This document shows, piece by piece, positions 17,278 to 33,650 of a DNA stretch of 35,520 bases (its first letter is position 1; every line of letters starts with the position of its first letter). This DNA comes from a virus. The notes beneath the pieces are model-generated. The model ran no database searches and was not told where the DNA came from. It was given only the letters and a program-made list of their open reading frames with translations. The DNA lies in IMG/VR virus record IMGVR_UViG_3300044986_000030, positions 1 to 35,520 of that record, one strand, 5' to 3'. Position numbers and translations under genes: made by a program.

Positions 17278-17279
17278 GA

Positions 17280-19941: not shown

Positions 19942-20096
19942 TTGTTCTCCGGCTTCGCGGTCTTGGCGGCTTGCTTGAAGTCAGCACCGGTCGGGCGTCC
20001 AGCCTCACCGGGGCGCTTCATGCGCTCGCCAGAGCCAGCCTTGATCCGCTCCTGCTTGGCTAGGATGTTGGCATAAAGCCCGGGCTTGCGGTTCAT
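19938..20096 (-). CDS. Small basic conserved phage protein, 52 aa
   Basis: From ATG 20096 the protein starts MNRKPGLYANILAKQERIKA, then GSGERMKRPGEAGRPTGADF and a Lys-rich tail. This opening is common in small phage proteins encoded by packaging regions. I prefer ATG 20096 over an upstream start because it forms an ATGA overlap with the preceding stop. Its function is unknown. It may bind nucleic acid because of its high charge. Confidence 0.65.
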   Translation of the reverse strand: MNRKPGLYANILAKQERIKAGSGERMKRPGEAGRPTGADFKQAAKTAKPENK

Positions 20097-20395: not shown

Positions 20396-21732
20396 ATCCG
20401 CGCTCTCCGCGAGGTTGTCCGATCATGCACCGCCCACATGTCGTTGAGTGTGACGGTGTTCTGTGGGCCGACCATGAGCGGTTTAGGCTCAAGGGCCGGG
20501 GTCTTGTCAGCAGTCTCTTGCCATGATACCGCAAGCATACGGAAAGCGTCAGCCGGGTGGCTAGTCCAATCGTGGCGCGGTGACTGACGATAGGCTTTTT
20601 TGTCCTCGTCGTATTCGCGCTGGTACTGACGCAGCGCCTCTATGCCATCGCGGCATTTCTCGGCGTCAAACCAAATGCGCGGCAGCGTCATGCGCACCGC
20701 TTGTATGCCTGACTGCACGCCAATGTCGGGAACGACGGCAAGTTTGGCGACATCCAGATGCACCGCCAGTTGCTCAATGATGCTCTTACCCGTTTGCAGG
20801 CTTTTGGCTTTGGCGTCGTGCGGCAGGTAGTGGCGGGCGTAGCGGTAAGGCTTTGCCATCACCGTTGTGGCGATGTCGTAGATGTCAGCACCCGACACCG
20901 CAAAGAAGTCTATGACGCGGATTTCCCCGCGCCCGATCTGGTAGAACCATATCGCCGTATCGTCCCGATACCCCAAGTCCCAACTGCTATACACAGGCAG
21001 GTTGGGGTCGTGTGGCACTTGGCAGATGCGGCCTTGTTGGTCAGCCTCACGCATTTCTTTACCGTAAAAAGCGCCAAGGATGGCAGCCTCAAAACTGCAC
21101 TCGTACTCCTGCAAATACTGATCCTCGGCCAATTGCGCCCGGGCGGCGGCTAGTTCGCCGCTAGGGAGAAGCCCGCTGCTGGAGGCGGGGAGGCGCAGCA
21201 GGAACCACTCGCCAGAAAGACGAGCAGCGGTTTCGTAAATCTCCCAAAAAGCATTCTTGCCCTTGGGTGTGCCGCCAAACACCGCCCAGCCTTGTTTGTC
21301 GGAGAGGGCAGGGCGTATGACGTTGCCGAACACGCTAGGTTTGAAGTCACCGTATTCGTCCATGTACACGCCAGAGAAACCGAGGCCACGCATGGCATCC
21401 GCGTTGTCGGCACCGTAGAGGCGTATCTGGCTGCCGTTGATCAGCGTGATCGTTAGCTCTTGTTCGTTCTTAGACTGCGTGACGCTTTGCGCAAACTCTT
21501 GAAAGTATTGCCATGCGACCGCTTTGGCTTGACTGCGGTAGGGGGCAATGTACGCGAATAGCCCCCGATCCCCTTGGTAGGTGATAGCGGCTCGGATGAT
21601 GTCGTTGACGGCGGCGACTGTCTTGCCAGCGCGACGATGGGCGACGAGACAGGCCCAGCGTTGCGTTCGGTTGTGGAACGGCATGAACGCCTTGCGTGGG
21701 CGATAGGGAATGACTACTCGGGAGCCATCCAA
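20392..21732 (-). CDS. terL: Terminase large subunit (ATPase and nuclease)
   Basis: This is the motor that cuts and packages DNA into the prohead through the portal. Walker A is AHRRAGKT at residues 31-38. Walker B is GVYMDEYGD at 121-129, with D125 and E126. The coupling motif GGTPKG is at 153-158. The nuclease domain (about 245-410) has WDLGYRDDTA with D252, HDAKAK near 305 and HPADAFR with D395, the usual RNase H-like acidic triad. The length of 446 residues is normal. The start is TTG at 21732, chosen because homologues begin just before VVIPYRPR; it overlaps the small subunit gene by 19 bases. Confidence 0.93.
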   Translation of the reverse strand: MDGSRVVIPYRPRKAFMPFHNRTQRWACLVAHRRAGKTVAAVNDIIRAAITYQGDRGLFAYIAPYRSQAKAVAWQYFQEFAQSVTQSKNEQELTITLINGSQIRLYGADNADAMRGLGFSGVYMDEYGDFKPSVFGNVIRPALSDKQGWAVFGGTPKGKNAFWEIYETAARLSGEWFLLRLPASSSGLLPSGELAAARAQLAEDQYLQEYECSFEAAILGAFYGKEMREADQQGRICQVPHDPNLPVYSSWDLGYRDDTAIWFYQIGRGEIRVIDFFAVSGADIYDIATTVMAKPYRYARHYLPHDAKAKSLQTGKSIIEQLAVHLDVAKLAVVPDIGVQSGIQAVRMTLPRIWFDAEKCRDGIEALRQYQREYDEDKKAYRQSPRHDWTSHPADAFRMLAVSWQETADKTPALEPKPLMVGPQNTVTLNDMWAVHDRTTSRRARI

Positions 21733-21968
21733 CTGACTTCTACCTTGATCTTGTCGCCGTTGTTGCCCGTGTGTTCGTGTCGGGCGAGCTTTGGCACATG
21801 GTATTCAATGACATCCATCATGCAGCGCCATGCGGCTTCTGCGCCTTTCTGCTCGTAGATTTCATCAAGCCAGATGTTAAGGCGATGGGCGTTGCCGTCT
21901 ACAAGACGGGCTATTGCCTCTCTTGCCTCTGCGGTTGCCTTGTTGGGCGATCCTTTAGGTCTTGGCAT
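21714..21968 (-). CDS. Terminase small subunit candidate, 84 aa
   Basis: The start MPRPKGSPNKATAEAREAIA with a helical continuation (LVDGNAHRLNIWLDEIYEQK) is like short DNA-recognition proteins encoded directly before TerL in many phages. At 84 residues it is smaller than most TerS proteins. The position (19-base overlap with TerL) and the basic N-terminus support this call. The 46 bases upstream of its ATG are AT-rich and lack a good SD, unlike the rest of the unit, and could include a late promoter, but I see no convincing -35/-10 pair. Confidence 0.6.
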   Translation of the reverse strand: MPRPKGSPNKATAEAREAIARLVDGNAHRLNIWLDEIYEQKGAEAAWRCMMDVIEYHVPKLARHEHTGNNGDKIKVEVSWMAPE

Positions 21969-22014
21969 AGGGCTTATTTATGCACAATTGAAACAATAGT
22001 TAAAGTGTCGTCGT

Positions 22015-23496
22015 TTACAAACCTTTTCCGCGTCGTTCCTTTTCGCGGCGCTCCTGTTCCATCAGCGCAGCAGCCAATACAGTTGGGCCAGCCACGCCAG
22101 CCAGTAGGTCAGGCGATGTGATTTTGGCCGGATCAAATGCAGCAAAGCGTGAGCGTACCTGACTTGGCTCAAACGGGATCAACACGGTTTGTACGTCGCC
22201 GGTACCGCTTTTCCCGCTGATGTCCTTAATGCCGTCAAACCCTTGGTCTTTTAGGGCTTTTGTAATTTTGTCAGGAATGCTTGTCCAAACGTGGCTGTTG
22301 CGGCCCACTGTAAGGTCTTGCTCTAACTCTGCTACCCAATCTTTCGGGGTAAATCGGCTTTCCTTTGCCCACGGATCAGCGCCGCGCTTCAATCGTGTAC
22401 GGTCGCCTTTCACCGCTTCTTTCAATGCTGGCAACACTTTTTCCTGAAGCGTTGCTGTGTCTTGCGTGTTGAGCGGGTTCGTCATACGAACGGCTCCCGT
22501 TAGCACGCCTTTAGCCTCCGTCCACGGCGCATTTGTTTGCGTAATTTCGTGAGGATAGCCAGCCAAGCGGTAAATCTTCGCCATTTCTTCTTCGTTACCG
22601 TACAACGAACCGCTTTCTAACCACAATTTGCGTAAAGCCGTCAGCGGATTGCCTCCGGCCTCGCGTTTCATAATAAAATTTATATGCTCATCCGAGGTAA
22701 TGCTTGACCCCGGTTTGTCATGAAGCATTAATGGACCTTCCGCAAGGTCAGGATTTTGATAGCCAATGCGGGACACACGCTCGCGGATTGTTTGCTGCGT
22801 TTCTGGCGGCAATGAATAAAACGTGCGCTCAACGTTGACCAGCCGATTGCCTCGCCCACCAACATTACGGGCTTCCGTCTGATAATAATTTTCAAATTCA
22901 CCCGTGTCTTGCGCAATGCGCGACGTATCGCGTTTGCTCATTGCGTAATTGCTCGCTAACGGCTCTGACGATGTGCCAAAGGGCATTGGGCCAGAGGTTG
23001 CGCGGCGCGGGTCTATTTGCCCTGTTTGCAAAAGGCGATCCAATCGTTCGGTACCATGCGCAAATGGTTCATACCCCAAGGCTGTCATGCGCTCTTGCGG
23101 CGTGTTTATCGGTGTCAACCCTAACCCACCTTCGCTAACAGGTTTGGCGGCATTACGCTGGGCTGTTGCTAACGCCTCGGCTCGTTCGGCGGCAATATCT
23201 GCCCCCTTGCCCAACCGTTTTGCTGCCCGTACTACCCCACCCGCCACCGGGATTGCCGTTGCCATTGCCAGCCCCATGCCCAAAGGGTCGCTTTCTCGGC
23301 GGGCGCGTTCAAAGTCTCTGGCGGCTTGAGGGTATTGCAGGGGTGTGAACCCTGCGGCAATGTCTACGGCTACGTCAGCCGCATCAGCGTCTTGCGGCTG
23401 CTCAAGGCTCGTCAAACGTTCATAGCGGCGGCGCAAATTGGCTTTGTTCCCCAAATATTTGAGGGCAGCAGCAACCTGTTCGCGGCGCATCGCCAT
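22015..23496 (-). CDS. ADP-ribosyltransferase-like protein of phage type, 493 aa
   Basis: The first 100 residues are helical, ending in a hydrophobic segment (LGMGLAMATAIPVAGGVVRA). At 145-160 the sequence FAHGTERLDRLLQTGQI fits the H-G-T opening of DT/PARP-type ADP-ribosyltransferases (H147). Then TSSEPLASNYAM (Y184) can be the second motif. Near the end, FDGIKDISGK and TVLIPFEPSQVRSRF (E443), followed by AAFDPAKITSPDLLAG, match the end of the ART-like domain found in many phage polyvalent proteins. A H147/Y184/E443 triad is thus plausible, but the long distance from Y to E implies an insertion. It could be an effector delivered with the DNA or a modifier of host proteins. Its location beside terminase genes is unusual. 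Confidence 0.55.
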   Translation of the reverse strand: MAMRREQVAAALKYLGNKANLRRRYERLTSLEQPQDADAADVAVDIAAGFTPLQYPQAARDFERARRESDPLGMGLAMATAIPVAGGVVRAAKRLGKGADIAAERAEALATAQRNAAKPVSEGGLGLTPINTPQERMTALGYEPFAHGTERLDRLLQTGQIDPRRATSGPMPFGTSSEPLASNYAMSKRDTSRIAQDTGEFENYYQTEARNVGGRGNRLVNVERTFYSLPPETQQTIRERVSRIGYQNPDLAEGPLMLHDKPGSSITSDEHINFIMKREAGGNPLTALRKLWLESGSLYGNEEEMAKIYRLAGYPHEITQTNAPWTEAKGVLTGAVRMTNPLNTQDTATLQEKVLPALKEAVKGDRTRLKRGADPWAKESRFTPKDWVAELEQDLTVGRNSHVWTSIPDKITKALKDQGFDGIKDISGKSGTGDVQTVLIPFEPSQVRSRFAAFDPAKITSPDLLAGVAGPTVLAAALMEQERREKERRGKGL

Positions 23497-23864
23497 TACT
23501 TAAACCGCTCCAGCTTGTACGACAACGAGGCGATTTCGCCCACGATTTCGTCAATGATGTTCTGCAAGTCGGTGTCTTTCGGCAGGTCGCCTCGGATGCC
23601 CTTCACGAACGTCAGCAGGCTTTCGGCGTACTTTGCAGCATCCTTCTGCACCTTGAACCCGTCAGGGTAGTCGTCCAGCGGGATGATGCCGTAATGGCCC
23701 TGATACGCCTCAGCGTACTTGTCGGCCAACCCCACGATGTTTTCGTAGTAGTGACCAAGTGCCTTATGAGCGGCATAACTTGCCGTCTGCAAATGTAGGA
23801 AATGCGCGGCGGTGCTGCTATGCAGCAATACCCCGACAAACTCGGCAGCGTCTTTATGCGACAT
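23496..23864 (-). CDS. Ferritin/Dps-like helical protein (DUF5856-like), 122 aa
   Basis: The sequence has HFLHLQTASYAAHKALGHYY followed by ENIVGLADKYAEAYQGHYG, which looks like a Dps/ferritin-like helix pair with His, Glu and Tyr residues. The rest is helical (SLLTFVKGIRGDLPKDTDLQ, IIDEIVGEIASLSYKLE). I recall this as the phage family DUF5856. Metal binding or DNA protection is possible, but the ligand set is not complete enough to claim it. The next gene is coupled by TAATG at 23496. Confidence 0.6.
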   Translation of the reverse strand: MSHKDAAEFVGVLLHSSTAAHFLHLQTASYAAHKALGHYYENIVGLADKYAEAYQGHYGIIPLDDYPDGFKVQKDAAKYAESLLTFVKGIRGDLPKDTDLQNIIDEIVGEIASLSYKLERFK

Positions 23865-23895
23865 AGAACCTCCGCATTGCGAGGGTAATGGGAGG

Positions 23896-24540
23896 CTACT
23901 GGCTCGTCAACCGCACGACGCTGTGCGGGACGACCATAGCCAGCGTAGATTCATCGGGCAGCCCGTGCTTTTCCAACAAGTCCTTTTCGGCGGGGTACAC
24001 CAGCATCGCCCCCTCGTACTGAAACATTTGCGCGTTGGCGACACCCTTTTCCACGCCCTCAAAGTCATCCAGCAGCACGACTGTGTTGCCATGAGCAATT
24101 TCTGCCATCAACCGAATGTCCCGCGGGGTCAGCCTGCCGTCCAGAAATATCAGATCAGCCTTGATCTTGTTTTTCAGCATGTCTTCAAACATCTCTGTGC
24201 TGCCTTTCATCGGGTACTGGTTGACCTTAAAGGGCAGCTTGATGTCGTTGCTATGGTCACAGGTGTAGACCGTCGCCCCGCTAGAGACGAGCGCGAGCGT
24301 GGACTTGCCGATGTAGGTGCCGACCTCTGCAACCACCTTTGGCTTAAACGCCTGCACGACGCTGTAGAGACACCAGAACGCCGAGAGGCTGATGCTGCCT
24401 GTCGGTGCCTGTGCCGTCGTGCGTAGCGCATCCAACATATTGAGCTGATCCACCCACGGGATTTTCGGCTGGCTCACCGTGTTTTCCAGCAGCGTTTCCC
24501 AAATGATGCGGCTCGTTCTTTTGCGATTTAAGTTAATCAT
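23896..24540 (-). CDS. Class I SAM-dependent methyltransferase (Methyltransf_24 type)
   Basis: The glycine-rich motif I is AEVGTYIGKS at residues 71-80. Motif II (VYTCDHSNDI) holds the acidic residue that binds the ribose of SAM. Then ADLIFLDGRLTPRDI and VVLLDDFEGVEKG match motifs III and IV of the family that methylates sugars or small molecules. The substrate cannot be read from sequence. It has a good SD (AGGGAG) and is divergent from the glycosyltransferase at 24555, with only 14 bases between the two starts. The pairing of a methyltransferase with a glycosyltransferase suggests work on a sugar. Confidence 0.75.
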   Translation of the reverse strand: MINLNRKRTSRIIWETLLENTVSQPKIPWVDQLNMLDALRTTAQAPTGSISLSAFWCLYSVVQAFKPKVVAEVGTYIGKSTLALVSSGATVYTCDHSNDIKLPFKVNQYPMKGSTEMFEDMLKNKIKADLIFLDGRLTPRDIRLMAEIAHGNTVVLLDDFEGVEKGVANAQMFQYEGAMLVYPAEKDLLEKHGLPDESTLAMVVPHSVVRLTSQ

Positions 24541-24554
24541 GCTAATTTCTCCCT

Positions 24555-25235
24555 ATGTCAACCTTCGTCTTTTTCCACGTTGGCACCGATCTTTCAATGC
24601 CAACGGCTATGGTGGCGTCGCTTCGGAAACACAATCCCGGCGCTGAAATCATCCAAGTTACCGACAACGCGACCCCCACCGTCCCGGGCGTCACATGGGC
24701 GCACCCGACAAGCGGTGACCCCGCGCATCTGATGCTTTGGCGCACGCAAGCCTTTGCAGCGTTGCAGCTCGCCCAGCCTGCGCTTTACATGGACACCGAT
24801 ATGCTGGTGCGCAAACCCATCCACCCCGAGCTGCTTTTGGGCGAGGCCATCATCGCGGTCTGCCGACGCACGTTCATGCGCGATGCGATCTTCAACGTCC
24901 ACCAGCGCGGGCAGGAGTATTCCGAATACGCTGGGAAAACGCTGGACGAGATTTACCCGTACCTTGGCTGCGCGACCATCACCCCCGATGCGGGCGTGTG
25001 GGTCAATTTGGCCGAGCGGTACGCCGCCCTGCCCGACAAGTTCAAAGCGTGGTACGGCGATCAGGAGGTTTTGCGGGATTACGTCAACAGCCTCTCGCCG
25101 CTTTTTGTGCGCAAGCTGGACGAGTACCGTTATGCCTGTCTGCCGGAACATTTCGCCGAGTTCCCCTCGCCCGTCATCGCCCATTACAAAGGCAAGCGCA
25201 AAGCACAGATGTTCACCGACGCTGCTCTGGCTTGA
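24555..25235 (+). CDS. Glycosyltransferase, GT-A fold, phage type
   Basis: The motif ALYMDTDMLVRKPIH has the D-x-D (residues 80-82) that binds the metal and nucleotide-sugar in GT-A enzymes. N-terminal strands (FVFFHVGTD, EIIQVTDNATP) and the later segment DAGVWVNLAERYAALPDKF are like the GT8/GT32-type folds. The gene is on the plus strand inside a long minus-strand unit, ending 23 bases inside the 3' end of the VRR-NUC-like gene. It has no clear SD or promoter, so its regulation is uncertain. It may modify host surface sugars, particle proteins or DNA bases; none can be decided. Its orientation looks like a later insertion. Confidence 0.75.
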   Translation: MSTFVFFHVGTDLSMPTAMVASLRKHNPGAEIIQVTDNATPTVPGVTWAHPTSGDPAHLMLWRTQAFAALQLAQPALYMDTDMLVRKPIHPELLLGEAIIAVCRRTFMRDAIFNVHQRGQEYSEYAGKTLDEIYPYLGCATITPDAGVWVNLAERYAALPDKFKAWYGDQEVLRDYVNSLSPLFVRKLDEYRYACLPEHFAEFPSPVIAHYKGKRKAQMFTDAALA

Positions 25236-25536
25236 TGGCATCGTCGTATAACGCCCAGAGATCGCGTATAGCGGCCTCTGCGTCACGGGCGACGTAATAC
25301 TCGCCCCTGCCCTCAAAGACGTTCTTAAACGCTTCCTGCGCCTCCCGTAGCCGCCCCGTCGGCATCTTGATCTCTACCCAGCACACCCACGATTTGCCAT
25401 CGGGTAGCAGCTTCGTCACGAGTTTGTCGGGGATGCCTTGGCCTGCCTTACCGAAATCGGTGACCGTAAAGCCTGCCTTGCGCAAGGCGTCGGTGATGAT
25501 GGCGTCGTTGCCGTCACGGCGGGCGGCGTGTCTCAT
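25213..25536 (-). CDS. VRR-NUC-like PD-(D/E)XK nuclease, 107 aa
   Basis: The sequence GQGIPDKLVTKLLPDGKSWVC followed by WVEIKMPTGRLREAQEAF shows the PD-(D/E)XK core: D37, E55 and K57 in the protein starting at ATG 25536. This order and the Q/E helix after it are typical of the VRR-NUC family, which cuts branched DNA. It may resolve recombination intermediates during packaging or replication. I use ATG 25536 because it overlaps the preceding stop as ATGA; a GTG at 25554 would add six residues. Its 3' end overlaps the opposing glycosyltransferase gene. Confidence 0.7.
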   Translation of the reverse strand: MRHAARRDGNDAIITDALRKAGFTVTDFGKAGQGIPDKLVTKLLPDGKSWVCWVEIKMPTGRLREAQEAFKNVFEGRGEYYVARDAEAAIRDLWALYDDAIKPEQRR

Positions 25537-26249
25537 CGCTTTTTCAGCACCCACATTTGCGGGTAATAGTACATCTCGCTGAACGTCCCGGCTTTGCCGT
25601 CCACCATGCGCGATAGTTCGTCAAAAAGCGACAGCATCAACCGCCTATCGTTTGGCTTTTTGCCACCAAAGTGCTGATTAAACTTTGCGGTGTACTCGGG
25701 GTTATACGTGCAGCTCATATCCTCAATGACGTAGTAGCCGCCCGAACGCACCCAGTTCTGGCAATGCACCAACGTACCTACAATGTCCTCGGCAATGTGG
25801 CTGCCGTCGTCCACAAATAGGTCGTAGTTTTTACGATCCAGCGTGCGAGCGTCGGCAATGGTGATTTTGACGTTTGGCAGGTCTTTGCAGAGGTTTGCGC
25901 AGTCAGGGCGTATGTCAAAGCCCTCAATGCTGCTCTGCGGTAGGTAATTCGCCCACATCCGCAGGCTTGCACCACACGCCACACCGATTTCGCCTACCCG
26001 CAGCTGTGCGGTTTTGCGGTTTGGCGTCAGGTCGGCAATCAGTTTTTCGTAGACCTTCGTGTAACCGTGCTTGATGTTGCCTTTGTCCGAGCCGTAGAGG
26101 TCGGCAAGGCCCGTGAGCGTAATTTCCGTAAGGTCAACTTCACCCGTTTGCGGCGCGTATTCTTCCGGCGTGACGGTATCAAGGTAACGGCGTACTCCTC
26201 CGCGCTCCTTGCCTCGTTGATGCAGCGAATCAGCCATATTTTCCACCAT
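25533..26249 (-). CDS. Class I methyltransferase, MycE/phage small-molecule type
   Basis: The sequence begins with the family marker LADLYGSDKGNIKHGYTKVY at about residues 48-67. Motif I is GEIGVACGAS (86-95), then FDIRPD (111-116), and DLFVDDGSH (143-151), with an acidic metal-binding site as in MycE-type sugar O-methyltransferases. Similar proteins are common in cyanophages and other aquatic phages. The substrate is probably a sugar or other small compound, but this is inference. Start choice: ATG 26249 or ATG 26237; the latter has GGTGGA just upstream. The gene belongs to the leftward unit. Confidence 0.75.
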   Translation of the reverse strand: MVENMADSLHQRGKERGGVRRYLDTVTPEEYAPQTGEVDLTEITLTGLADLYGSDKGNIKHGYTKVYEKLIADLTPNRKTAQLRVGEIGVACGASLRMWANYLPQSSIEGFDIRPDCANLCKDLPNVKITIADARTLDRKNYDLFVDDGSHIAEDIVGTLVHCQNWVRSGGYYVIEDMSCTYNPEYTAKFNQHFGGKKPNDRRLMLSLFDELSRMVDGKAGTFSEMYYYPQMWVLKKR

Positions 26250-26270
26250 ATTTGGTTTGATCGGTATTTA

Positions 26271-26807
26271 TTAAGCGGCGGCACGCGCATGGATTTTCTT
26301 CACGCCCCGCTCGCCCCAGAACTGGCAGATCATTGCTATGAGGCAAGGATCACCCGCCACCAGCTTTGCATCCGCTTCTCGTAGAAGATCAGCCACCCGC
26401 TCCCGTAGCCACTCCATCCGTTCGTCGTGGCCGGGTTCGTCATTTCTGACGTTGTAACGCGCAAGGAGGGCATCCGCGAGTTTGAGTTTAGCGAGCGGTT
26501 CACCAAGGCGCTTGTCCCACTCCCGGGCGCAACGATCCTGCGTTTGCTGCCAGCGTTCGTTGTCAGCGGCTACTTGCTTGTCAGTCTTGACGGGTTTTTC
26601 GCCGAACCCGGGCTTGGACTTTTTGAGGTCAAACAGCCCTTGCCATTGGTTACTGACCGACTGGTTAACAACTTCTTCTTGATCGTCACCGTACTTTGCC
26701 AGCTTCATCTGCATCGCATGGAGTGAGGCTTCCTTGATCGGCTTGCGTATCGCCTTGCGGAAGGCTACCCACCGCTCCCATGCCACAACGTCTAATCCTT
26801 CTACCAT
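26271..26807 (-). CDS. Replication organiser-like protein, 178 aa
   Basis: The C-terminal part of phage and plasmid replication proteins often reads 'R-K-x-I-K-E-A-S-L-x-x-x...NQSVSNQWQGLF'. Here it is RKPIKEASLHAMQMKLAKYG, then EEVVNQSVSNQWQGLFDLKK. The remaining helical region, with Arg/Glu residues and a Cys near the end, could bind host DnaB or single-stranded DNA. No winged-helix domain is seen at the N-terminus, so it may be a short version. It is the first well-supported gene after the control region on this side. The ATG has AGAGGG 8 bases upstream. Without a polymerase, the phage would depend on host replication proteins recruited here. Confidence 0.6.
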   Translation of the reverse strand: MVEGLDVVAWERWVAFRKAIRKPIKEASLHAMQMKLAKYGDDQEEVVNQSVSNQWQGLFDLKKSKPGFGEKPVKTDKQVAADNERWQQTQDRCAREWDKRLGEPLAKLKLADALLARYNVRNDEPGHDERMEWLRERVADLLREADAKLVAGDPCLIAMICQFWGERGVKKIHARAAA

Positions 26808-26928
26808 GTGATTACCCTCTAAACCCTGATGACTGATGGTGATTCCGCACGGTTGAGACGGAGTACGCCTAACGTGGATCGTGCGGAATTGATGACTGAC
26901 GGAGCCATCCGCTGTCGGCTACTTTTGC
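26808..26928. other. Non-coding control/origin-like region with repeats
   Basis: No convincing gene is present here. The region holds a 13-bp direct repeat TGATGACTGAYGG (26827-26839 and 26890-26902) around a 10-bp inverted repeat. The word GACTGAYG occurs at 26831, 26894 and, just outside, 26966, all on the plus strand, spaced 63 and 72 bases. Such repeats next to a replication-protein gene resemble origin iterons or operator sites. Immediately next to the replication gene is its SD (AGAGGG). I see no clear sigma-70 promoter reading leftward here. A 29-codon ORF on the minus strand is probably chance. Confidence 0.45.
26842..26889. repeat. Inverted repeat with 10-bp arms, ATTCCGCACG / CGTGCGGAAT
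   Basis: The perfect 10-bp arms are at 26842-26851 and 26880-26889 with a 28-base centre. The arms are flanked by the direct repeat TGATGACTGAYGG. The arrangement could be an origin hairpin, an operator for a dimeric protein, or a tiny mobile-element remnant with target duplications. No U-run follows, so it is not a classical terminator. Confidence 0.6.
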
Positions 26929-27210
26929 TCAAGGTTCGTCCCCTTGAGTGCCATTTGCGCTTCCCGACTGACGCCGCGCACCTACAGGCTGGCTGCCCCG
27001 GTGTAGGTTTAAGGTCACTCTGCGCGTGGTTGCCCCGACCAGAATGCCCGAGTAGTTGGGCGTGGTGGGGTGGTTGACACGACTAGAACAGTCAGTCAGA
27101 CTTCCATCACGCTTTAACCGCAAATCAAGCGTATTGCCAATCCCCGGCAGCGTCAAGCCCTCCGCCTCACCCTCGGGGGGTTTGTCGTTTCTGGCCTCCG
27201 TGAAACGCAT
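26929..27210 (-). CDS. Possible coupled ORF of 93 aa, uncertain
   Basis: From ATG 27210, which overlaps the Cro-like gene's stop as TAATG, there is an open frame to 26929. The start is MRFTEARNDKPPEGEAEG and a later segment is NHPTTPNYSGILVGATTRRV. The stop-start overlap is of the same type as the certain genes of this unit. There is a weak AGGG upstream. However, I recognise no family, and the region also carries operator-like words (a GTTGACAC at 27073). It may be a real small regulator, or this may be a leader with regulatory sequence. I rate it below an even chance. Confidence 0.35.
   Translation of the reverse strand: MRFTEARNDKPPEGEAEGLTLPGIGNTLDLRLKRDGSLTDCSSRVNHPTTPNYSGILVGATTRRVTLNLHRGSQPVGARRQSGSANGTQGDEP
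27074..27079 (+). promoter_or_regulatory. Isolated TTGACA half-site (operator-like)
   Basis: This copy of TTGACA, within GTTGACAC at 27073-27080, repeats the half-sites at 27398 and 27434. A 17-base spacing leads to CAGACT, a poor -10, so it is more likely a protein-binding half-site than a promoter. Confidence 0.3.
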
Positions 27211-27377
27211 TAGCGGCCCTGTGGGGGCTTTACCTGCCCTGCCTTCAGTTGCCACAGCCTTGCCGCTGGGATCGCCCCAGCCTTGACCCATTGCTGCACC
27301 GCAGCCCGGGTAACCCCGAAAGCCTTGGCAACAGCGTATTGGGAACCGTATCGCTTGATGAGTTGTTGCGGTTTCAT
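27210..27377 (-). CDS. Cro-like helix-turn-helix regulator, 55 aa
   Basis: The protein MKPQQLIKRYGSQYAVAKAF continues GVTRAAVQQWVKAGAIPAAR and LWQLKAGQ. It has the length and pattern of P22-type Cro: helix 2 AVAKAFGV, recognition helix RAAVQQW, then IP..R and a short C-terminal strand. It should bind a palindromic operator as a dimer; the 17-bp palindrome at 27398-27414, directly upstream, is the obvious site. The ATG at 27377 lies about 8-9 bases past the -10 box, so the mRNA is probably leaderless, and indeed there is no SD. A longer start at 27404 would include the promoter and is rejected. Confidence 0.8.
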   Translation of the reverse strand: MKPQQLIKRYGSQYAVAKAFGVTRAAVQQWVKAGAIPAARLWQLKAGQVKPPQGR

Positions 27378-27385
27378 GGAAAAGA

Positions 27386-27414
27386 AGGATAGGGGGGTTG
27401 ACACCCTATGTCAA
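27386..27414 (-). promoter_or_regulatory. Leftward promoter of the switch, TTGACA-17-TATCCT
   Basis: On the minus strand the -35 TTGACA is at 27414-27409, the spacer is 17 bases, and the -10 TATCCT is at 27391-27386. Transcription should start at about 27379-27380, next to the ATG of the Cro-like gene at 27377. It would read leftward into the replication gene and, if no terminator intervenes, into the whole late unit. Confidence 0.75.
27398..27414. promoter_or_regulatory. Palindromic operator formed by the two -35 boxes
   Basis: TTGACACCCTATGTCAA has perfect 6-bp arms around a 5-bp centre. Each arm is the -35 box of one of two opposing promoters. This is the likely binding site of the Cro-like dimer, which would shut both promoters; RNA polymerase bound to one would also exclude the other. 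Confidence 0.7.
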
Positions 27415-27426
27415 GGCAACTATCCT
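27398..27426 (+). promoter_or_regulatory. Rightward (early) promoter, TTGACA-17-TATCCT
   Basis: The -35 TTGACA is at 27398-27403, the 17-base spacer at 27404-27420, and the -10 TATCCT at 27421-27426. The start should be near 27433. A third TTGACA half-site sits right at the start (27434-27439). It feeds the early operon beginning at 27461, which has the SD AGGAG at 27448-27452. Confidence 0.8.
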
Positions 27427-27433
27427 ATCAGCG

Positions 27434-27439
27434 TTGACA
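27434..27439 (+). promoter_or_regulatory. TTGACA half-site at the early transcription start
   Basis: The 8-mer GTTGACAC at 27433-27440 repeats the sequence at 27397-27404. It has no matching -10 downstream (AGAGAT), so a regulatory half-site is more likely than a second promoter. Confidence 0.4.
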
Positions 27440-27460
27440 CACACAACAGGAGCAACAGAG

Positions 27461-27754
27461 ATGCTTACAACCACCACCATTGTCCTGCTTGGCGTAGCCT
27501 TTGAGGCTGAAGTTGAGTACGCCGTACATTATGGCGATCCCTCGGTTGGCGTACCCGAGACGCTAGAGATTTGCAGCGCGTACATCCTCGGCGTGTACCC
27601 CGACGGTATTGACAGCAGCGACAAGAAATCCAACGCGGTCTACGTCAATTACAAGTGCGATCTTGAGTATCTGACGATTGAGGAATTTGACACGTTGGAA
27701 AACTCTTGCTGGAACCACTACCGCAAGGTGCAAGAGGAGGCGTGGGACGTATGA
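27461..27754 (+). CDS. First early protein, 97 aa, unknown
   Basis: From ATG 27461 with SD AGGAG eight bases upstream. The protein begins MLTTTTIVLLGVAFEAEVEY and then has acidic residues throughout (for example DLEYLTIEEFDTLENSCW). Two Cys and several Tyr are present. The N-terminal residues are mildly hydrophobic but not a clear signal peptide. No family is recognised. As the first gene of the early operon, it could be a host-takeover or regulatory protein, but this is inference. The upstream in-frame TTG start at 27398 is within the promoter and is rejected. Confidence 0.7.
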   Translation: MLTTTTIVLLGVAFEAEVEYAVHYGDPSVGVPETLEICSAYILGVYPDGIDSSDKKSNAVYVNYKCDLEYLTIEEFDTLENSCWNHYRKVQEEAWDV

Positions 27755-27867
27755 AGCGCAGCAAACTCGCCATTTTTGGCATCGTCATCATCTACCTGCT
27801 GGCTGCTCTCGTTGACCCCTGCGACGGTCACTCTTGCGATACGGAGGTGACGCATGGAACCCGATAA
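27751..27867 (+). CDS. Small membrane protein, 38 aa
   Basis: The ATG at 27751 overlaps the previous stop (ATGA). The sequence is a Lys/Arg start (MKRSKL) followed by a hydrophobic stretch AIFGIVIIYLLAALV, then DPCDGHSCD, giving two Cys outside the membrane segment. It is a single-pass membrane peptide or a short exported peptide. The function is unknown. GAGG lies ten bases upstream. Confidence 0.55.
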   Translation: MKRSKLAIFGIVIIYLLAALVDPCDGHSCDTEVTHGTR

Positions 27868-28000
27868 CGTCTGGCAAGACGACGACAGTTGGTGGCATCA
27901 GCAAGATTTGGAATTACAACAGCGCGAAGAAGAAGAACGCATTGAGGCTTGTAACCGCGCCATCGCAGCATTAACGGAGAACAACCATGAAGGTGTATGA
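27854..28000 (+). CDS. Small acidic early protein, 48 aa
   Basis: The ATG at 27854 has a very strong SD (GGAGGTGA, starting at 27843). The protein MEPDNVWQDDDSWWHQQDLE continues with a coiled-coil-like acidic helix and a Cys. It overlaps the previous gene by 14 bases and the ERF gene by 14 bases. The strong SD and the overlaps support it as real. The function is unknown. Confidence 0.6.
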   Translation: MEPDNVWQDDDSWWHQQDLELQQREEEERIEACNRAIAALTENNHEGV

Positions 28001-28556
28001 AAAGATCGCGGCGATCACCGCCGAGTTGAGTAAGGTCGGTATTAGCAAAGACAGCAAGAACCAGTCGCAAGGTTACAAGTTCCGCGGCATTGACCAAGTG
28101 TACGGGGCGCTTTCGCCCCTCCTTGCCAAGCACGGCCTTTGCATCTTGCCCCGCGTGACGGCACGCGAGGTGGTGGAGCGGCAGAACCGTCAAGGCACAG
28201 CGTTGTTTTACGTCACGCTCACCGTGGAGTTTGATTTTGTAGCCGCCGAGGATGGCAGCAAACACACGGTCGTCACGATTGGTGAGGCAATGGATAGCGG
28301 AGACAAGGCGAGCAACAAGGCCATGTCTGCTGCTTATAAGTACGCCGCCTTCCAAGCGTTCTGCATCCCAACCGAGGGCGACAACGACGCCGATGCCACG
28401 ACGCACGAAGTTGCCGCGCAAGACCCCGAGGTGCTGGCGCAGATCGCTGGGTGCGATAGCAAGAAGGCGTTGCGGGCGCTGCTTAACGATCTGCCCGTCC
28501 CGGTGCGTGAACTGCACATGGATGCGTTTATGGCTCGCAGCAAAGAGGTGCAGTAA
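27987..28556 (+). CDS. ERF-family single-strand annealing protein
   Basis: The sequence has KIAAITAELSKVGISKDSKN, then YKFRGIDQVYGALSPLLAKH and later YVTLTVEFDFVAAEDGSKHT and AMSAAYKYAAFQAFCIP, which are the core blocks of the ERF recombinase family. These anneal complementary single strands during phage recombination, replication and end joining. The protein of 189 residues is complete, with a C-terminal acidic and helical tail. The SD is GGAGA. The next gene, the exonuclease, overlaps by TAATG, the usual ERF/exonuclease pairing. The product probably acts with the SSB-like protein downstream. Confidence 0.85.
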   Translation: MKVYEKIAAITAELSKVGISKDSKNQSQGYKFRGIDQVYGALSPLLAKHGLCILPRVTAREVVERQNRQGTALFYVTLTVEFDFVAAEDGSKHTVVTIGEAMDSGDKASNKAMSAAYKYAAFQAFCIPTEGDNDADATTHEVAAQDPEVLAQIAGCDSKKALRALLNDLPVPVRELHMDAFMARSKEVQ

Positions 28557-29161
28557 TGGAACAGCGCACAACCGAATGGCATCAAGCACGGCTCGGCAAA
28601 GTCACGGCCTCCCGAGTATCTGAAGTTATTGCCAAGGGCAAAGGCGCGACCCGGGACAGCTACATGGCTGACCTCATCGTGGAACGGCTAACGGGTCAAA
28701 GGGGCGGCGGGTTTTCTACCGCGCACATGGAGTGGGGTACGGAGCAGGAACCCCACGCTAGGGCCGCCTACAGCGCCCGTACAGGCGAGTTGGTTGAGGA
28801 GGTGGGGTTTATCCAGCACCCTCGTCTTGAACATGCTGGCGCGTCCCCTGACGGCCTCGTAAACGATGAGGGGCTGGTGGAGTTCAAATGCCCTGCGACC
28901 AGCACCCACCTTGACACGCTGCTGGCTGGCGAGGTGCCGACCAAGTACATCCCGCAGATTCAGTTTCAGATGGCTTGCACGGGGCGTAAATGGTGCGATT
29001 TCGTGTCTTACGACCCTCGGCTGCCCGAACACCTGCGGATGTTCGTCAAGCGCGTGGAGCGGGACGACAAATACATCACGACATTGGAGGGCGAGGTTAA
29101 GACTTTCCTTGCCGAGTTAAACGAGAAACTGGAAAAACTACAGGAGTTAAACCGTGGCTAA
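28556..29161 (+). CDS. YqaJ/lambda-type alkaline exonuclease
   Basis: The nuclease degrades one strand of double-stranded DNA to make substrate for the annealing protein. The start EQRTTEWHQARLGKVTASRV is the family signature (W-x-x-x-R-x-G-x-x-T-A-S). MEWGTEQEPHARAAY supplies an acidic residue. The catalytic core is HAGASPDGLVNDEGLVEFKC with D99, E109 and K111. The Q-rich helix IPQIQFQMACTG follows, as in lambda Exo. The length of 201 residues is normal. A C-terminal coiled coil ends the protein. Confidence 0.88.
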   Translation: MEQRTTEWHQARLGKVTASRVSEVIAKGKGATRDSYMADLIVERLTGQRGGGFSTAHMEWGTEQEPHARAAYSARTGELVEEVGFIQHPRLEHAGASPDGLVNDEGLVEFKCPATSTHLDTLLAGEVPTKYIPQIQFQMACTGRKWCDFVSYDPRLPEHLRMFVKRVERDDKYITTLEGEVKTFLAELNEKLEKLQELNRG

Positions 29162-29414
29162 TCAATACGACCCGAACATGCGTGGCGTGCTGTTCAAGAA
29201 CGACAAGAAGGGCAATGAGAAACGCCCCGACTACCGAGGATCGTGCGTCATCAACAACGTGGACATGAACGTATCAGGTTGGATACAGGCCAGCAAAAAG
29301 ACGGGCGATAAGTTTATGTCGCTACGGTTTGAGGCCAAAGGCGAACAGCCAAAGCCGAAAGCCGCGCCTGCGATGAGCGAAGATAATTGGTCTGACCTTG
29401 ATACACCCTTCTGA
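29154..29414 (+). CDS. Small SSB-like protein with acidic C-terminal tip
   Basis: The protein has a beta-rich core (YRGSCVINNVDMNVSGWIQA, then KFMSLRFEAK) like DUF736/SSB-like phage proteins. Then comes a Pro/Ala-rich linker and a C-terminus EDNWSDLDTPF. The acidic residues followed by a terminal Pro-Phe are the same pattern as the DDDIPF tip of bacterial SSB, which recruits partner proteins. The start is GTG at 29154 with AGGAG upstream, overlapping the exonuclease gene by 8 bases. With ERF and exonuclease, it completes a recombination module. The OB-fold identity is likely but not proven. Confidence 0.65.
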   Translation: MANQYDPNMRGVLFKNDKKGNEKRPDYRGSCVINNVDMNVSGWIQASKKTGDKFMSLRFEAKGEQPKPKAAPAMSEDNWSDLDTPF

Positions 29415-29868
29415 CTTTGAGGCAAGGTTTAGGGCAAGTCGCCCAGCAGAGATTGTTGTGGCGACGTACCTGCTGAACCGTGGGCATACGGTGACGCTGC
29501 CAAAACGTCGCATGGCCCGTGACTTTGCCGACCGAAAGGAATACGCCGACAAAGGCGATGTGTATGCGTCGGGTAAGCGGATAGAGGTTAAGCACATCAA
29601 GCATGACTTTCAGTACGAAGCGTGGCCGTTTGAGACGGCTGCGATCTGTGCCAAGAAGTCCTTTGATGCGGCTGATCCGCGCCCTGATTACTACTACATC
29701 GTCAATGCAAGTCTGACCGTGGCGGCACTCGTAGATGTACGCACCACGTTCCCCGACTGGATTGTGCGGAAAATCACCGACAAGGAGCGCGGGTACGACT
29801 ACGACGTTTATGCCGTGACCCCCGAATATCTCGCATGGCGTTACATAGACTTTGAGGAACGACTGTGA
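29398..29868 (+). CDS. PD-(D/E)XK-like endonuclease, 156 aa
   Basis: The core is YADKGDVYASGKRIEVKHIK with D54, E63 and K65, the D-x(8)-E-x-K arrangement of small phage nucleases. An upstream helix (EIVVATYLLNRGHTVTLPK) and the later strand YYYIVNASLTVAALV fit this fold. The role may be in resolving recombination or in host DNA breakdown. The start is TTG at 29398, inside the SSB-like gene, which explains a weak SD; the next possible starts lie within the conserved helix. The product is 156 residues. Confidence 0.65.
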   Translation: MIHPSDFEARFRASRPAEIVVATYLLNRGHTVTLPKRRMARDFADRKEYADKGDVYASGKRIEVKHIKHDFQYEAWPFETAAICAKKSFDAADPRPDYYYIVNASLTVAALVDVRTTFPDWIVRKITDKERGYDYDVYAVTPEYLAWRYIDFEERL

Positions 29869-30275
29869 AGCGCATATTCCCGAAAGGCACGACGCCACAG
29901 CAGATGGCGGTTGCCGTAACGCGCATGATGCAGGGGTTAGACCCGCAGCGCGTGTGGGCGGTGGAAGTGGCCGAGTGGAAAAAGCCTAAAACGTCGCAGC
30001 AGCTGGCCTATTTATGGGGTGTTGTTTACCCGATGATTATGGAAGCGGGCGGCGAGGCGCTCAAAGGCTGGACACGCGACGATCTGCATGAGTATTTCTT
30101 GGGTGAGGTGTTTGGTTGGGAAACGCTCACAGGGCTTGGCAAGAAACGTATGCGCCCGTTAAAGCGCACCTCGCGCATGACCCAGCAAGAATTTACCGAA
30201 TTTCTGCACGGCATTGAAAACCGGCTGATAGAGCTTGGTATTGGGCCGTTACCGGAGCCAATTTATGTTTCGTAA
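29865..30275 (+). CDS. ninB: NinB-like recombination protein
   Basis: The sequence includes WAVEVAEWKKPKTSQQLAYL followed by WGVVYPMI, then DDLHEYFLGEVFGWETLTGL and a C-terminal MTQQEFTEFLHGIENRLIEL. This is the NinB (Orf) family, which in lambda binds single-stranded DNA and helps load the recombination proteins in place of RecFOR. At 136 residues its length is typical. The GTG start overlaps the preceding stop as GTGA at 29865-29868. Confidence 0.85.
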   Translation: MKRIFPKGTTPQQMAVAVTRMMQGLDPQRVWAVEVAEWKKPKTSQQLAYLWGVVYPMIMEAGGEALKGWTRDDLHEYFLGEVFGWETLTGLGKKRMRPLKRTSRMTQQEFTEFLHGIENRLIELGIGPLPEPIYVS

Positions 30276-30287
30276 AAAAGGTTTAGT

Positions 30288-30839
30288 ATGAATTTCTGGG
30301 CTGATACGCCATACGTCACGGCTCATGTGCGTAACGAGTTCTTGCACGACCATGAGAAGGGCAAAGGCGAATTTACCCTCTGCACCGTGTTTGGTTTTCG
30401 CGCTGAACCCATGCGCGTACCCATGTTTCAAATCATGTTGGAGTCAGGCGCACAATGGGCGCGTATCCCGATCCACGCGCTGTGTAGCAAGCCCTGCCTA
30501 GAAATGGCGCTGCCGCTTGTTGTGTGGTGGGATTCGTTCAGCCGCAACTGTCAGGTCAAGGAGGTGGCGTTCCTGCGTAACCACCGGGTCAAGGCGATAG
30601 GCCGTGACGGGGTACAGCGCCCGGGGACGTATTTGATGACAGTATTCTGGTGCGACGGCGGTTGGAGCGAGGTGCCTGACCAGAGCAAAGACCACCACAT
30701 CATCGCTTTAGACTCGGGGCAATGGATTGCCTACCCTAACAATAGGTTGTTATGGGCTGACCCGAGCTGGATCAACGGGGAGGTGCCGAGGGATTGGCGC
30801 TCCCCGTCAACTAACTACAGCGTGGAAGGTATGCCGTGA
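30288..30839 (+). CDS. Early protein of unknown function, 183 aa
   Basis: The protein has many aromatic residues and Cys: MNFWADTPYVTAHVRNEFLH, then FRAEPMRVPMFQIMLESGAQ and PLVVWWDSFSRNCQV, and a later beta-like region FWCDGGWSEVP. The C-terminal half is rich in Trp and Tyr. It looks like a small globular protein related to unknown phage proteins. The start ATG 30288 has AAGG upstream. A host-targeting or DNA-interacting protein is possible, but nothing in the sequence proves it. Confidence 0.65.
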   Translation: MNFWADTPYVTAHVRNEFLHDHEKGKGEFTLCTVFGFRAEPMRVPMFQIMLESGAQWARIPIHALCSKPCLEMALPLVVWWDSFSRNCQVKEVAFLRNHRVKAIGRDGVQRPGTYLMTVFWCDGGWSEVPDQSKDHHIIALDSGQWIAYPNNRLLWADPSWINGEVPRDWRSPSTNYSVEGMP

Positions 30840-30946
30840 AAACGATTCTGGAGGCATTACAGCGGCTTTGGACGGTAGATTGGCGTCATGTGCCGCCCCC
30901 TAACTGGGCCTGCTCACGGCGGCGCACAGGAGGGCAATACTGGTGA
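30836..30946 (+). CDS. Coupled micro-ORF, 36 aa
   Basis: GTG at 30836 overlaps the preceding stop as GTGA and the TGA at 30944 overlaps the next GTG start. The peptide has many aromatic and basic residues (four Trp, RRR-type run near the end). No family is recognised. The two stop-start overlaps are the reason to call it; it might work as a translational link only. Confidence 0.45.
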   Translation: MKTILEALQRLWTVDWRHVPPPNWACSRRRTGGQYW

Positions 30947-31152
30947 TTATAGATACCGAAAGCCCGCCGGGGGCATGGAAAACGGAAATGGAGCGGATGC
31001 CGTGGAGGTTCAGTCAGCAAGTCAAGGTTGAGCAAGCGTTGGCGGCAATGCGCCAAGCGGGCTTGGCCGCTGAAGCAACGACGCTGGCATTGGAAATACG
31101 CACGCTCAAGAACGAGCTAGAAACATTGCGCGTTCGTCTTGACGGCGCTTAA
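30943..31152 (+). CDS. Small coiled-coil protein, 69 aa, last early gene
   Basis: The start is GTG at 30943 with a strong AGGAGG-like SD in the preceding ORF. The N-terminal part (ESPPGAWKTEMERMPWRF) precedes a helix with heptad-like spacing (ALEIRTLKNELETLRVRLDG), suggesting a coiled-coil dimer. It overlaps the 3' end of the opposing endolysin gene by 47 bases, so the two operons converge here. I see no terminator hairpin. Function unknown. Confidence 0.6.
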   Translation: MIIDTESPPGAWKTEMERMPWRFSQQVKVEQALAAMRQAGLAAEATTLALEIRTLKNELETLRVRLDGA

Positions 31153-31591
31153 CCAACCCCGGTAATACCCGCCCTGCCGCCTTCGTCCACATCAGGAAGG
31201 CGTCAGCAGCGCCCTCTACGTCCCCTCGGTTGTAGCGCATCCGTATGCTGCTGCGTTGGAGGTTCCCAAGTCCGACGTTAAAGGCAAAACTCACCAGAGC
31301 ATCAAATTGCCCTTGGCTATTAACAGCAGCAGGGCAATATCGGGCCACGCCACGCTCAAACCGCTTAAGGTCTTGAGCAAGGATAGCGTCAACCTCTCCC
31401 ATAGAGAGGGCGCGATCCCAGCCATCGGGTATCGGTAGGTTCTTCCGATCCTCATACTTCACCGCTGCGTGGGTTGGGTCAATAACGTGTCCGACTCCGA
31501 CCGTCCATAGCAGAGCCGGACACCGATAAGGGCGCATCCGTACGCCCTCATGATGCTTGATCATCGCCTTTGCGGCGTCGGATACCTTCAT
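31106..31591 (-). CDS. Endolysin, GH24 lysozyme
   Basis: The enzyme cleaves peptidoglycan at the end of infection. The signature is KHHEGVRMRPYRCPALLWTVGVGH, read in two parts: E15 as catalytic acid, C24 at the place of T4 lysozyme D20, and T30 with the following G-V-G-H. The Cys version of this motif (C-P-A-x-x-W-T) is common in phage and known to be active. The later part has QFDALVSFAFNVGLGNLQRS, the family's second block, and MWTKAAGRVLPGLVKRRQDE. The 161 residues are full length with no signal-anchor, so export needs the holin. The gene is the end of the leftward unit. Confidence 0.9.
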   Translation of the reverse strand: MKVSDAAKAMIKHHEGVRMRPYRCPALLWTVGVGHVIDPTHAAVKYEDRKNLPIPDGWDRALSMGEVDAILAQDLKRFERGVARYCPAAVNSQGQFDALVSFAFNVGLGNLQRSSIRMRYNRGDVEGAADAFLMWTKAAGRVLPGLVKRRQDERAMFLARS

Positions 31592-32073
31592 TTCTGGCTA
31601 AAGGCGCGACCACCAAAATGAAAGGCAATGATGCTGGCAAGAATTGCCATTTCATCCTCGGAAAATACGTTTTCTAGCGCAATCGCAAACGGTACGCCTT
31701 GGTTCCACGCGTACCACATACCAGCGATGTTGATGATGACAAGCTCTAGCACAAAGATGTAGGTGACGACCGGACGCACCGAGGCGCGTAGGTTAATCAT
31801 CCATTGGCTTGCGCCCTCGCCAATCTTCATGTCGTGTTCATAGAGCGCCACACGTTCCTCGGTAGCGGTCTGCGTCTGGATTTGCTCCAGCTTGATTTCC
31901 TCAACCCGTGCCTGCGCGATAAACCCACGTTCTGCGAGGGCTAGTTCACGCTCTTTCTGTGCGGCAACCAACGCAAGCTCATGCTTCTTGTCCTGCCGAT
32001 CTTGGAAAATCGCAAGAATCTTGGGCAGACCACCCGCAAGGAACGACAGGAAGGTGCTAACCATCGTCATCAT
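31588..32073 (-). CDS. Holin candidate with GTA-holin-like architecture, 161 aa
   Basis: A short N-terminal hydrophobic stretch (residues 3-22) is followed by a long charged helix (25-85), then a membrane segment PVVTYIFVLELVIINIAGMW (101-120) and a third hydrophobic segment at 140-155. This order is like the three-segment holins used by gene transfer agents and some phages. It is encoded directly before the endolysin with an ATGA overlap. The function in opening the inner membrane is inferred from architecture and position. Confidence 0.7.
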   Translation of the reverse strand: MMTMVSTFLSFLAGGLPKILAIFQDRQDKKHELALVAAQKERELALAERGFIAQARVEEIKLEQIQTQTATEERVALYEHDMKIGEGASQWMINLRASVRPVVTYIFVLELVIINIAGMWYAWNQGVPFAIALENVFSEDEMAILASIIAFHFGGRAFSQK

Positions 32074-32477
32074 TTGGAAGCCCTCACTACGTCATCGCCC
32101 TTGGTGACGGTCACGTGGTCGCCCTCTACGTCTACCCGCATCGGCTGTTCCTTGCGGTCAAGTTTGTCTAGTTTGGCGATCAATTCCTTAATCACCTCAA
32201 ACTCGGGCTTTTCTTCCTTTTCTACGGTGCCAGCAATAGACGCCAGCATGGAGATAAGGGCGGTCAGCGAGGCACCGAGCAGCCCCATCACGGCGGCGAT
32301 CTTGTCGCTATCCAACGCAAGGCTAGACAACACACCGATCACTACAATGGCGGTGATGTACTTGAGGCCGTCCTTACCGATAGCCTTGCCCGCTACGTCC
32401 TTGGCGCTGCTGTTAGCTTCAAGGCGCTGTAACTCGGCCTTGATCTGCACTTTCAGCAGTTCAATGTCCTCGCTCAT
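32070..32477 (-). CDS. Membrane protein of the lysis cassette, 135 aa
   Basis: The N-terminal 35 residues are charged helix (SEDIELLKVQIKAELQRLEA). Two hydrophobic segments follow (39-55 with YITAIVVIGVLSSLAL, and 60-84), separated by a short loop, and then a charged C-terminal tail. A second holin, an antiholin or a membrane-scaffold is possible. It overlaps both neighbours by ATGA. The function is inferred from its topology and placement. Confidence 0.6.
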   Translation of the reverse strand: MSEDIELLKVQIKAELQRLEANSSAKDVAGKAIGKDGLKYITAIVVIGVLSSLALDSDKIAAVMGLLGASLTALISMLASIAGTVEKEEKPEFEVIKELIAKLDKLDRKEQPMRVDVEGDHVTVTKGDDVVRASK

Positions 32478-32665
32478 TTAATCGCGTCTACCAGCATCAC
32501 GGCCATGCTGCCAAGCGCACCAATCAGCACAAGGATGACCGTGCCGCCGACAGAAATAACCAATCGCTCAAGACGCTTCAGCCGAGCGTGGATGGCCTCA
32601 TATCGGACTGCACAAACATCAATGTGGCTGGTGACGGTCACTTCTAGCTCTTGCACCGATGTCAC
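32474..32665 (-). CDS. Small single-pass membrane protein, 63 aa
   Basis: A GTG start at 32665 is coupled to the preceding stop (GTGA). An N-terminal charged helix of 35 residues leads to one hydrophobic helix (ISVGGTVILVLIGALGSMAV). It belongs to the three-gene membrane set before the endolysin. It could be a pinholin, antiholin or small spanin-like component; the sequence shows no lipobox. Confidence 0.55.
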   Translation of the reverse strand: MTSVQELEVTVTSHIDVCAVRYEAIHARLKRLERLVISVGGTVILVLIGALGSMAVMLVDAIK

Positions 32666-33045
32666 GGCATACCCTCAACGACAACCCACGACTGCGTGGC
32701 CTCGTCCCACGAATACATCTTGGGCGGTTCGCCCGTGCCAGCGTCAGCGGGCATCGGCACCGGAGCCTGCCAGTTGCAGTCGGCGTCCAGCGTCCATGAC
32801 GGATACGGCTGCGGCGGGATGAACGCATCCAGCGCGGCATCGTACTTGTAGCCGATCCCGGCGTAGTGCTTGCGGATGTTGCCGTTGTAGCTCGTCTGCT
32901 TCCAGTTGCCGCCGAGCAACTTCTGGCAGAACGCCACGCCGATGCTTTCCAGTTCGTTGCCGTCAGCGTCAGCCGTGTCCTTGTTAGCGACAACGATGAC
33001 CTGCTGAACCACGTTGTTTTCGTCAAGCCTTGCGAAATGTGCCAC
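32662..33045 (-). CDS. Conserved phage protein of the MAHFA...YAGIGY type, 127 aa
   Basis: The sequence MAHFARLDENNVVQQVIVVA continues with a DxDG loop and FCQKLLGGNWKQTSYNGNIR, KHYAGIGYKYDAALDAFIPP, and a Trp-rich end (PSWTLDADCNWQAPVPMP). This is a well-known virion-associated family from cyanophages and other aquatic phages. It probably is a small tail or baseplate-associated protein. The start is GTG with a strong SD, GAAGGAG. Confidence 0.75.
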   Translation of the reverse strand: MAHFARLDENNVVQQVIVVANKDTADADGNELESIGVAFCQKLLGGNWKQTSYNGNIRKHYAGIGYKYDAALDAFIPPQPYPSWTLDADCNWQAPVPMPADAGTGEPPKMYSWDEATQSWVVVEGMP

Positions 33046-33050
33046 TTGGG

Positions 33051-33650
33051 TTACTCCTTCAAATGCAAAGCGGTGAGACTTTCTTCCTCACCGACATAAC
33101 CAACCGGGAAAGTGTTGAACGATAGCGATACCCGCTCCTGCTGCACGGCTTCCACCATGTGCGTCAAGTGCGAGGGAAACAGCATCAAGTCACCGGCACC
33201 GACCTCAAACCACCACGATTCTGAGTTGTGCAGGTTCCAGTTGTCCGTCGGCAGTTTGATCTGCTGGTAGCCGTCGCGGTAGAAATAGATCTTGTCGCGC
33301 TCGCGTGCGGCCTTCATGTAGAGGACGCCGCTGATGAAGCTGTTGGGATGCGCGTGCTTGTGGTGCCATTGACCGGGCTGGCAGTAGTTGAGCCACGATT
33401 GCGTCACGCGTAAGCCCACCTCGTTCTTCGGGGCGTAGATACTTTGTAGATACGCATGGACGCTCGCTTCTACGAACGCCTTGAGGTTTGCCATCGTGTC
33501 GTGGCGCAGCACATAGCGGTCGTTGCTCGTCGTGTTGCCTTGGTTCTTGTGCGTCTCTTGCGAGTCCACAAAGGCAGTTTCCTCGGGGCTGAAGTCGCGC
33601 CCGAGTTCAAACTTGGCAACCGCCGTCGGGAATATGGAATACAGATTCAC
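33051..33650 (-). CDS. 2-oxoglutarate/Fe(II)-dependent oxygenase
   Basis: The protein begins like the family found in phage genomes (YSIFPTAVAKFE). The iron site is indicated by QWHHKHAHPNSFISGVLYM at about residues 94-112, with His ligands in 96-101, and by the late His in FPSHLTHMVEAV (H164). The 2OG-binding Arg is in ERVSLSFN (R173). Such enzymes hydroxylate protein or small-molecule substrates; in phage the substrate is unknown, though a tail or host surface part is suggested by the location next to the fibre. The GTG start is coupled to the upstream stop. Confidence 0.8.
   Translation of the reverse strand: MNLYSIFPTAVAKFELGRDFSPEETAFVDSQETHKNQGNTTSNDRYVLRHDTMANLKAFVEASVHAYLQSIYAPKNEVGLRVTQSWLNYCQPGQWHHKHAHPNSFISGVLYMKAARERDKIYFYRDGYQQIKLPTDNWNLHNSESWWFEVGAGDLMLFPSHLTHMVEAVQQERVSLSFNTFPVGYVGEEESLTALHLKE

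Follow-up and report, generated by a model that had tools for sequence, protein, structure and literature searches.

Overlapping divergent early promoters between a Cro-like gene and a recombination operon in a phage family

How can two divergent operons be served from an intergenic region of only 83 bp? The question is raised by the 35,520-nucleotide stretch of viral DNA analysed here (IMG/VR record IMGVR_UViG_3300044986_000030, positions 1 to 35,520; the window), in which that distance separates a cro-like gene from a rightward operon of recombination genes (Table 1). The Cro-like protein belongs to the P22 Cro family (PF14549, 41.3 bits against a curated cut-off of 30.2) and is followed on the same strand first by O-like replication and resolvase-like proteins and further on by packaging and structural genes. 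The 83-bp region contains no cI-type repressor gene between the divergent operons, as a lambda-type lysis/lysogeny switch would have, and neither cI-like nor integrase genes were found among the main open reading frames scanned, a search covering the smallest frames only in part in a record that is possibly incomplete. Elsewhere in the window, a lone rightward frame of 226 amino acids without a PHROG match lies within the leftward operon (24555–25235), PHROG matches to a starvation-inducible regulator family and a ferredoxin-labelled family occur at 23496–23864 and 30288–30839, and highly repetitive predicted proteins, one rich in Ala/Ser repeats and one Gly-rich, lie near both contig ends (1769–3700 and 33892–35403).

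Table 1 Features of the control region and its flanking genes in the window
Feature	Position	Strand	Remarks
−35 (TTGACA), rightward early promoter	27398–27403	+	Invariant or nearly so in 33 N5-type regions
−10 (TATCCT), rightward early promoter	27421–27426	+	Predicted start ~27433
−35 (TTGACA on minus strand), leftward cro promoter	27409–27414	−	Invariant or nearly so in 33 regions
−10 (TATCCT on minus strand), leftward cro promoter	27386–27391	−	Predicted start ~27379; −10 to ATG 6–8 nt in 90/93 relatives
17-bp palindrome TTGACA-CCCTA-TGTCAA from two interleaved −35 boxes	27398–27414		Inner gap 4, 5 or 6 bp in relatives
Proposed Cro operator over leftward −10, GGATAG-N4-GTTGAC	27387–27402		Putative, weak alone; place and N4 spacing as in sister-clade operators
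Proposed Cro operator over rightward −10, GTCAAG-N4-CTATCC	27410–27425		Putative, weak alone; place and N4 spacing as in sister-clade operators
Cro-like repressor, 55 aa, P22 Cro family	27210–27377	−	PF14549 E = 1.3e-10; solved Cro matches 2hin, 1rzs, 2pij; mRNA predicted essentially leaderless
First gene of rightward early operon, 97 aa	27461–27754	+	No assigned family
Recombination genes: ERF annealing protein, YqaJ exonuclease, SSB, an uncharacterised ORF, NinB-like	27987–30275	+
Replication initiation O-like protein, downstream of cro	26271–26807	−	PHROG 678, E = 8.8e-14

Two interleaved promoters in the window

Positions 27386–27426 read AGGATA-GGGGGG-TTGACA-CCCTA-TGTCAA-GGCAAC-TATCCT, giving TTGACA-17-TATCCT on the plus strand (27398–27426) and the same boxes and spacing on the minus strand (27414–27386), with the −35 of each promoter inside the 17-bp spacer of the opposite one. 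A preliminary description of this DNA had reported these coordinates, boxes, spacings and the palindromic centre, all of which were exact on re-reading. In a consensus scan of positions 17000–35520 the two sites ranked top, at 10 of 12 positions, and promoter-like sites were overall scarcer than in shuffled sequence (5 versus 7.6); no other site in the window matches the promoter consensus at 10 or more of 12 positions. The window holds a single mismatch-free copy of TTGACA-N5-TGTCAA; base composition predicts 9e-8 occurrences of the strict two-sided motif, and among 150 simulated first-order Markov windows none had divergent or interleaved promoters close together that scored 10/12 or more. 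Both −10 boxes match only four of six consensus positions, and the promoters may therefore be of moderate strength. The palindrome was rejected as a terminator or RNA hairpin because it precedes both predicted starts and lacks a run of T.

The transcripts predicted from the two promoters begin differently. Because the cro ATG falls 6–8 nt past its −10 in 90 of 93 related regions (permitted range 4–14 nt), cro mRNA is expected to have essentially no leader; in the window the predicted start is about 2 nt ahead of the ATG. By contrast, the 97-residue first rightward gene is preceded by a likely ribosome site, AGGAG at 27448–27452. This near-leaderless start, absent from the preliminary description, would make the two transcripts unequal. 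The rightward leader could also form a small hairpin from about +1 (GTTG-ACACACA-CAAC, 27433–27447), and stronger ones occur at the same place in other clades (CGGGG-ATTGG-CCCCG and GTGAGG-ATTGG-CCTCAC). A conserved 5′ hairpin was nevertheless rejected, as it is weak in the window's clade and its pairing is lost in some relatives.

Conservation and geometry in relatives

A scan of viral sequences with the Cro protein yielded 80 loci and a scan with ERF 80 more; after a profile search, 93 distinct regions upstream of cro were compared, including a few distant ones whose low promoter scores are not trustworthy. The −35 boxes are separated by an inner gap of 5 bp in 33 regions (the N5 type), 6 bp in 8 and 4 bp in 15; they overlap in 8 (for example, CTTGTCAAG), stand back to back in 25 and lie elsewhere in 4. 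Relatives with another gap, a shared −35 or a back-to-back layout still have both promoters in the space that separates a P22-Cro-like gene from a divergent early operon, and the distance between the start of cro and that of the first divergent gene is 80–155 bp in 92 of the 93 regions. Across the 33 distinct N5 regions, the −35 and −10 boxes carry 1.6–2 bits per column and the inner 5 bp 0.75–1.2 bits. The 41-bp arrangement itself is carried by 42 contigs of the window's own family. Conservation in relatives joins the presence of consensus-like promoters on opposite strands of common DNA in identifying an overlapping divergent sigma-70 promoter pair, and supports the preliminary description on this point. 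The pair separates a Cro-like gene, followed by an O-like replication gene, from recombination genes encoding ERF, YqaJ exonuclease, SSB and NinB. That a single promoter is active in the host, the other having decayed or being dead in its context, is very improbable, given that 33 distinct regions preserve nearly every position of both and that other geometries rebuild them.

Two further observations concern how these regions vary. The loci L102 and L105, like L050 and L159, have the same or a near-identical first early gene and different cro/operator/promoter cassettes, which suggests that this block is exchanged between phages like an immunity region. The −10 boxes of relatives are separated by about 29–30, 40 or 50–51 bp, which is close to whole turns of the helix; this phasing is suggestive, with few independent clades and with box overlap limiting the choices, and chance is a possible explanation.

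Outside the family, the exact two-sided geometry is not broadly recurrent. The 41-bp pattern was found in 86 viral contigs, 42 of them in the window's family and 44 outside it, against 2 contigs for a promoter-incompatible gap of 9 and 1 for a scrambled palindrome; a gap of 6 with 18-bp spacers was found in 15 viral contigs, 11 of them of the family. However, many viral contigs have the palindrome next to just one promoter (at least 119 and at least 120 matches in one-sided scans), and in the N5 scan the mirrored second −10 stands near background, at about 9 of 119 among the matches listed, family members included. Since one-sided matches are common, most of the 44 non-family contigs are best read as carrying the palindrome and one promoter, and are not counted as independent inventions. 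An inner gap of 6 with an outer gap of 5 (spacers 17/17) shows a real excess of mirrored pairs: 30 of 123 oriented sites have the mirrored −10, whereas other outer gaps mostly give 0–7, apart from gap 0 with 13 and gap 10 with 12. The excess reduces to 15 distinct pairs, of which several are closely related and some lie between plausible divergent genes.

Individual matches are also of note. One mirror-image pair of the gap-6, outer-5 form, at L480:2105–2144 and L500:4167–4206, is flanked by a gene for a small HTH-like protein and, opposite it, by a divergent gene. The 41-bp geometry lies between divergent genes in four unrelated phage contigs (L012:8472–8512, L014:1655–1695, L015:4310–4350 and L066:8564–8604); here each −10 equals or nearly equals the consensus, three of these contigs having TATAAT in both directions, and one flanking gene is holin-like by eye. 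Bacterial and archaeal contigs matching the two-sided pattern number 69, many of them Clostridia; some matches separate divergent genes whose leaders would be about 25–45 nt long (for example, L318 and L324), where one partner gene resembles endonuclease III by eye.

Cro operators and the central palindrome

The perfect palindrome invites a reading in which a dimeric repressor, either Cro or a protein of the host, binds TTGACA-N5-TGTCAA as its operator over one real promoter, the second promoter being a by-product of symmetry. The abundance of the palindrome with a single promoter in viral contigs would fit a widespread operator-like motif. We consider this reading unlikely, as both −10s are conserved in the family and both cro and the early operon require a promoter here. 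Inner gaps of 4, 5 or 6 bp also occur among close relatives: regions with an identical recognition helix (GVTRAAVQQW) have an inner gap of 5 or 6 and spacers of 17/17 or 18/18, and another clade has an inner gap of 4 and spacers of 16/17. A rigid dimer operator should not tolerate a change from 5 to 6 under the same helix, whereas promoters do, which argues that the palindrome is probably a by-product of the interleaved −35s and not the operator of Cro. The central role given to the palindrome in the preliminary description is not sustained: relatives vary its inner gap or lose it and keep both promoters, and the clearest Cro operators of the family lie over the −10s.

Those operators are clear in a sister clade whose Cro recognition helix has KGA or DGA in place of RAA. 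There, GTTTAG-N4-CTAAAC with 0–2 mismatches is present at both −10s in 16 of 16 regions; the pair occurs in no RAAVQQW region, and N4 yielded the most matches among the half-site spacings tested. By homology with this clade, in which operators track the recognition helix, the window's Cro should act over the −10s. The candidate sites of the window's clade (Table 1) are poor palindromes with imperfect half-sites, and a CTATCCT heptamer extending beyond the −10 hexamer is conserved on both sides.

Polymerase competition and the early programme

RNA polymerase is large enough that an enzyme at either promoter would occupy the DNA needed by an enzyme at the other, and binding is therefore expected to be mutually exclusive, as the preliminary description had anticipated. 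For promoters sharing a −10, exclusive binding has been stated, and at such bidirectional promoters competition is seen only at strong transcription, appearing once one −35 is improved (PMC12825309); with two consensus −35s, competition is plausible here by analogy. The preliminary description went further and suggested that polymerase competition alone may set the early recombination operon against the leftward replication/late one, between near-equal promoters and with Cro only tuning the balance. Real competition is favoured by the interleaving and by a consensus −35 for each promoter, and strengthened −35s have been shown to bring competition out (PMC12825309). We nevertheless regard such a switch as quite unlikely. 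At the bidirectional promoters studied, competition was confined to high expression (PMC12825309), no feedback would hold either state, relatives abandon the symmetry, and a study of pLS20, citing modelling, holds that a switch needs unequal promoter strengths and a regulator acting differently on each (PMC4207663). The boxes are indeed identical, but identical boxes are insufficient to establish the equal strength drawn from them, and for equal promoters under one Cro, balanced alternation that ends when both are shut off together is a better fit than a bistable switch.

We favour, with a probability of about 0.68, a reading of the pair as collapsed lambda PL/PR early promoters that exclude each other at binding and are both repressed by Cro. 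Two divergent sigma-70 promoters, like PL and PR minus the cI region, would have been pushed together until each −35 came to lie within the other's spacer, the perfect palindrome being a geometric consequence of two consensus −35s. Rightward transcription would serve the recombination operon, and leftward transcription Cro, the O-like replication protein and whatever genes follow. Before Cro accumulates, one polymerase at a time would bind, serving the two operons in alternation from the common site; later, Cro would shut off both promoters through operators over their −10s.

Known systems resemble the pair in part. In lambda and P22, the PL and PR early promoters act with Cro and drive recombination genes one way and cro and replication genes the other; the window shares this layout and a Cro family protein, and its sister clade has P22-like N4 operators, but neither cI nor an immunity region was found between the promoters, and about 83 bp replace kilobases. 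The overlapping divergent promoters trfAp and trbAp of RK2/RP4 choose between replication and transfer, with other regulators (KorA) and another geometry. The Pc and Pr promoters of pLS20 are likewise divergent on the same DNA, with one driving a regulator gene, a repressor nearby and polymerase exclusion proposed; they differ in their very unequal strengths, a −35 that coincides with a −10, a regulator that activates one promoter and represses the other, and DNA looping (PMC4207663). Bidirectional promoters of E. coli and Salmonella also offer one site to polymerase in two orientations, one binding event excluding the other, but have a common −10 and starts 7–25 bp apart (PMC12825309, PMC10268837). 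The window has interleaved −35s, −10s 29 bp apart and predicted starts about 54 bp apart (27379 and 27433), and thus falls outside the shared −10 definition (PMC10268837); the pair is neither such a bidirectional promoter nor a lambda-type lysogeny switch. Overlapping divergent promoters are a known kind, and searchable papers contained no report of a phage case with this geometry or of the phage setting.

A broader proposal, which we hold tentatively, is that these phages, lacking a lysogenic repressor, have fused their two early promoters into one docking site that polymerase may occupy in either orientation, that the choice of orientation sets the balance between recombination and replication, and that the site has been rebuilt in varied geometries as an exchangeable cro-operator-promoter cassette. 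The pair offers a natural, compact and near-symmetric test case for polymerase competition, so far studied mainly with shared −10 promoters, and the family a natural series of geometries (inner gaps of 4, 5 and 6, shared −35 and back to back) flanked by similar genes. The pair also suggests how a lambda-type control region can shrink to less than 100 bp when the lysogenic repressor is absent.
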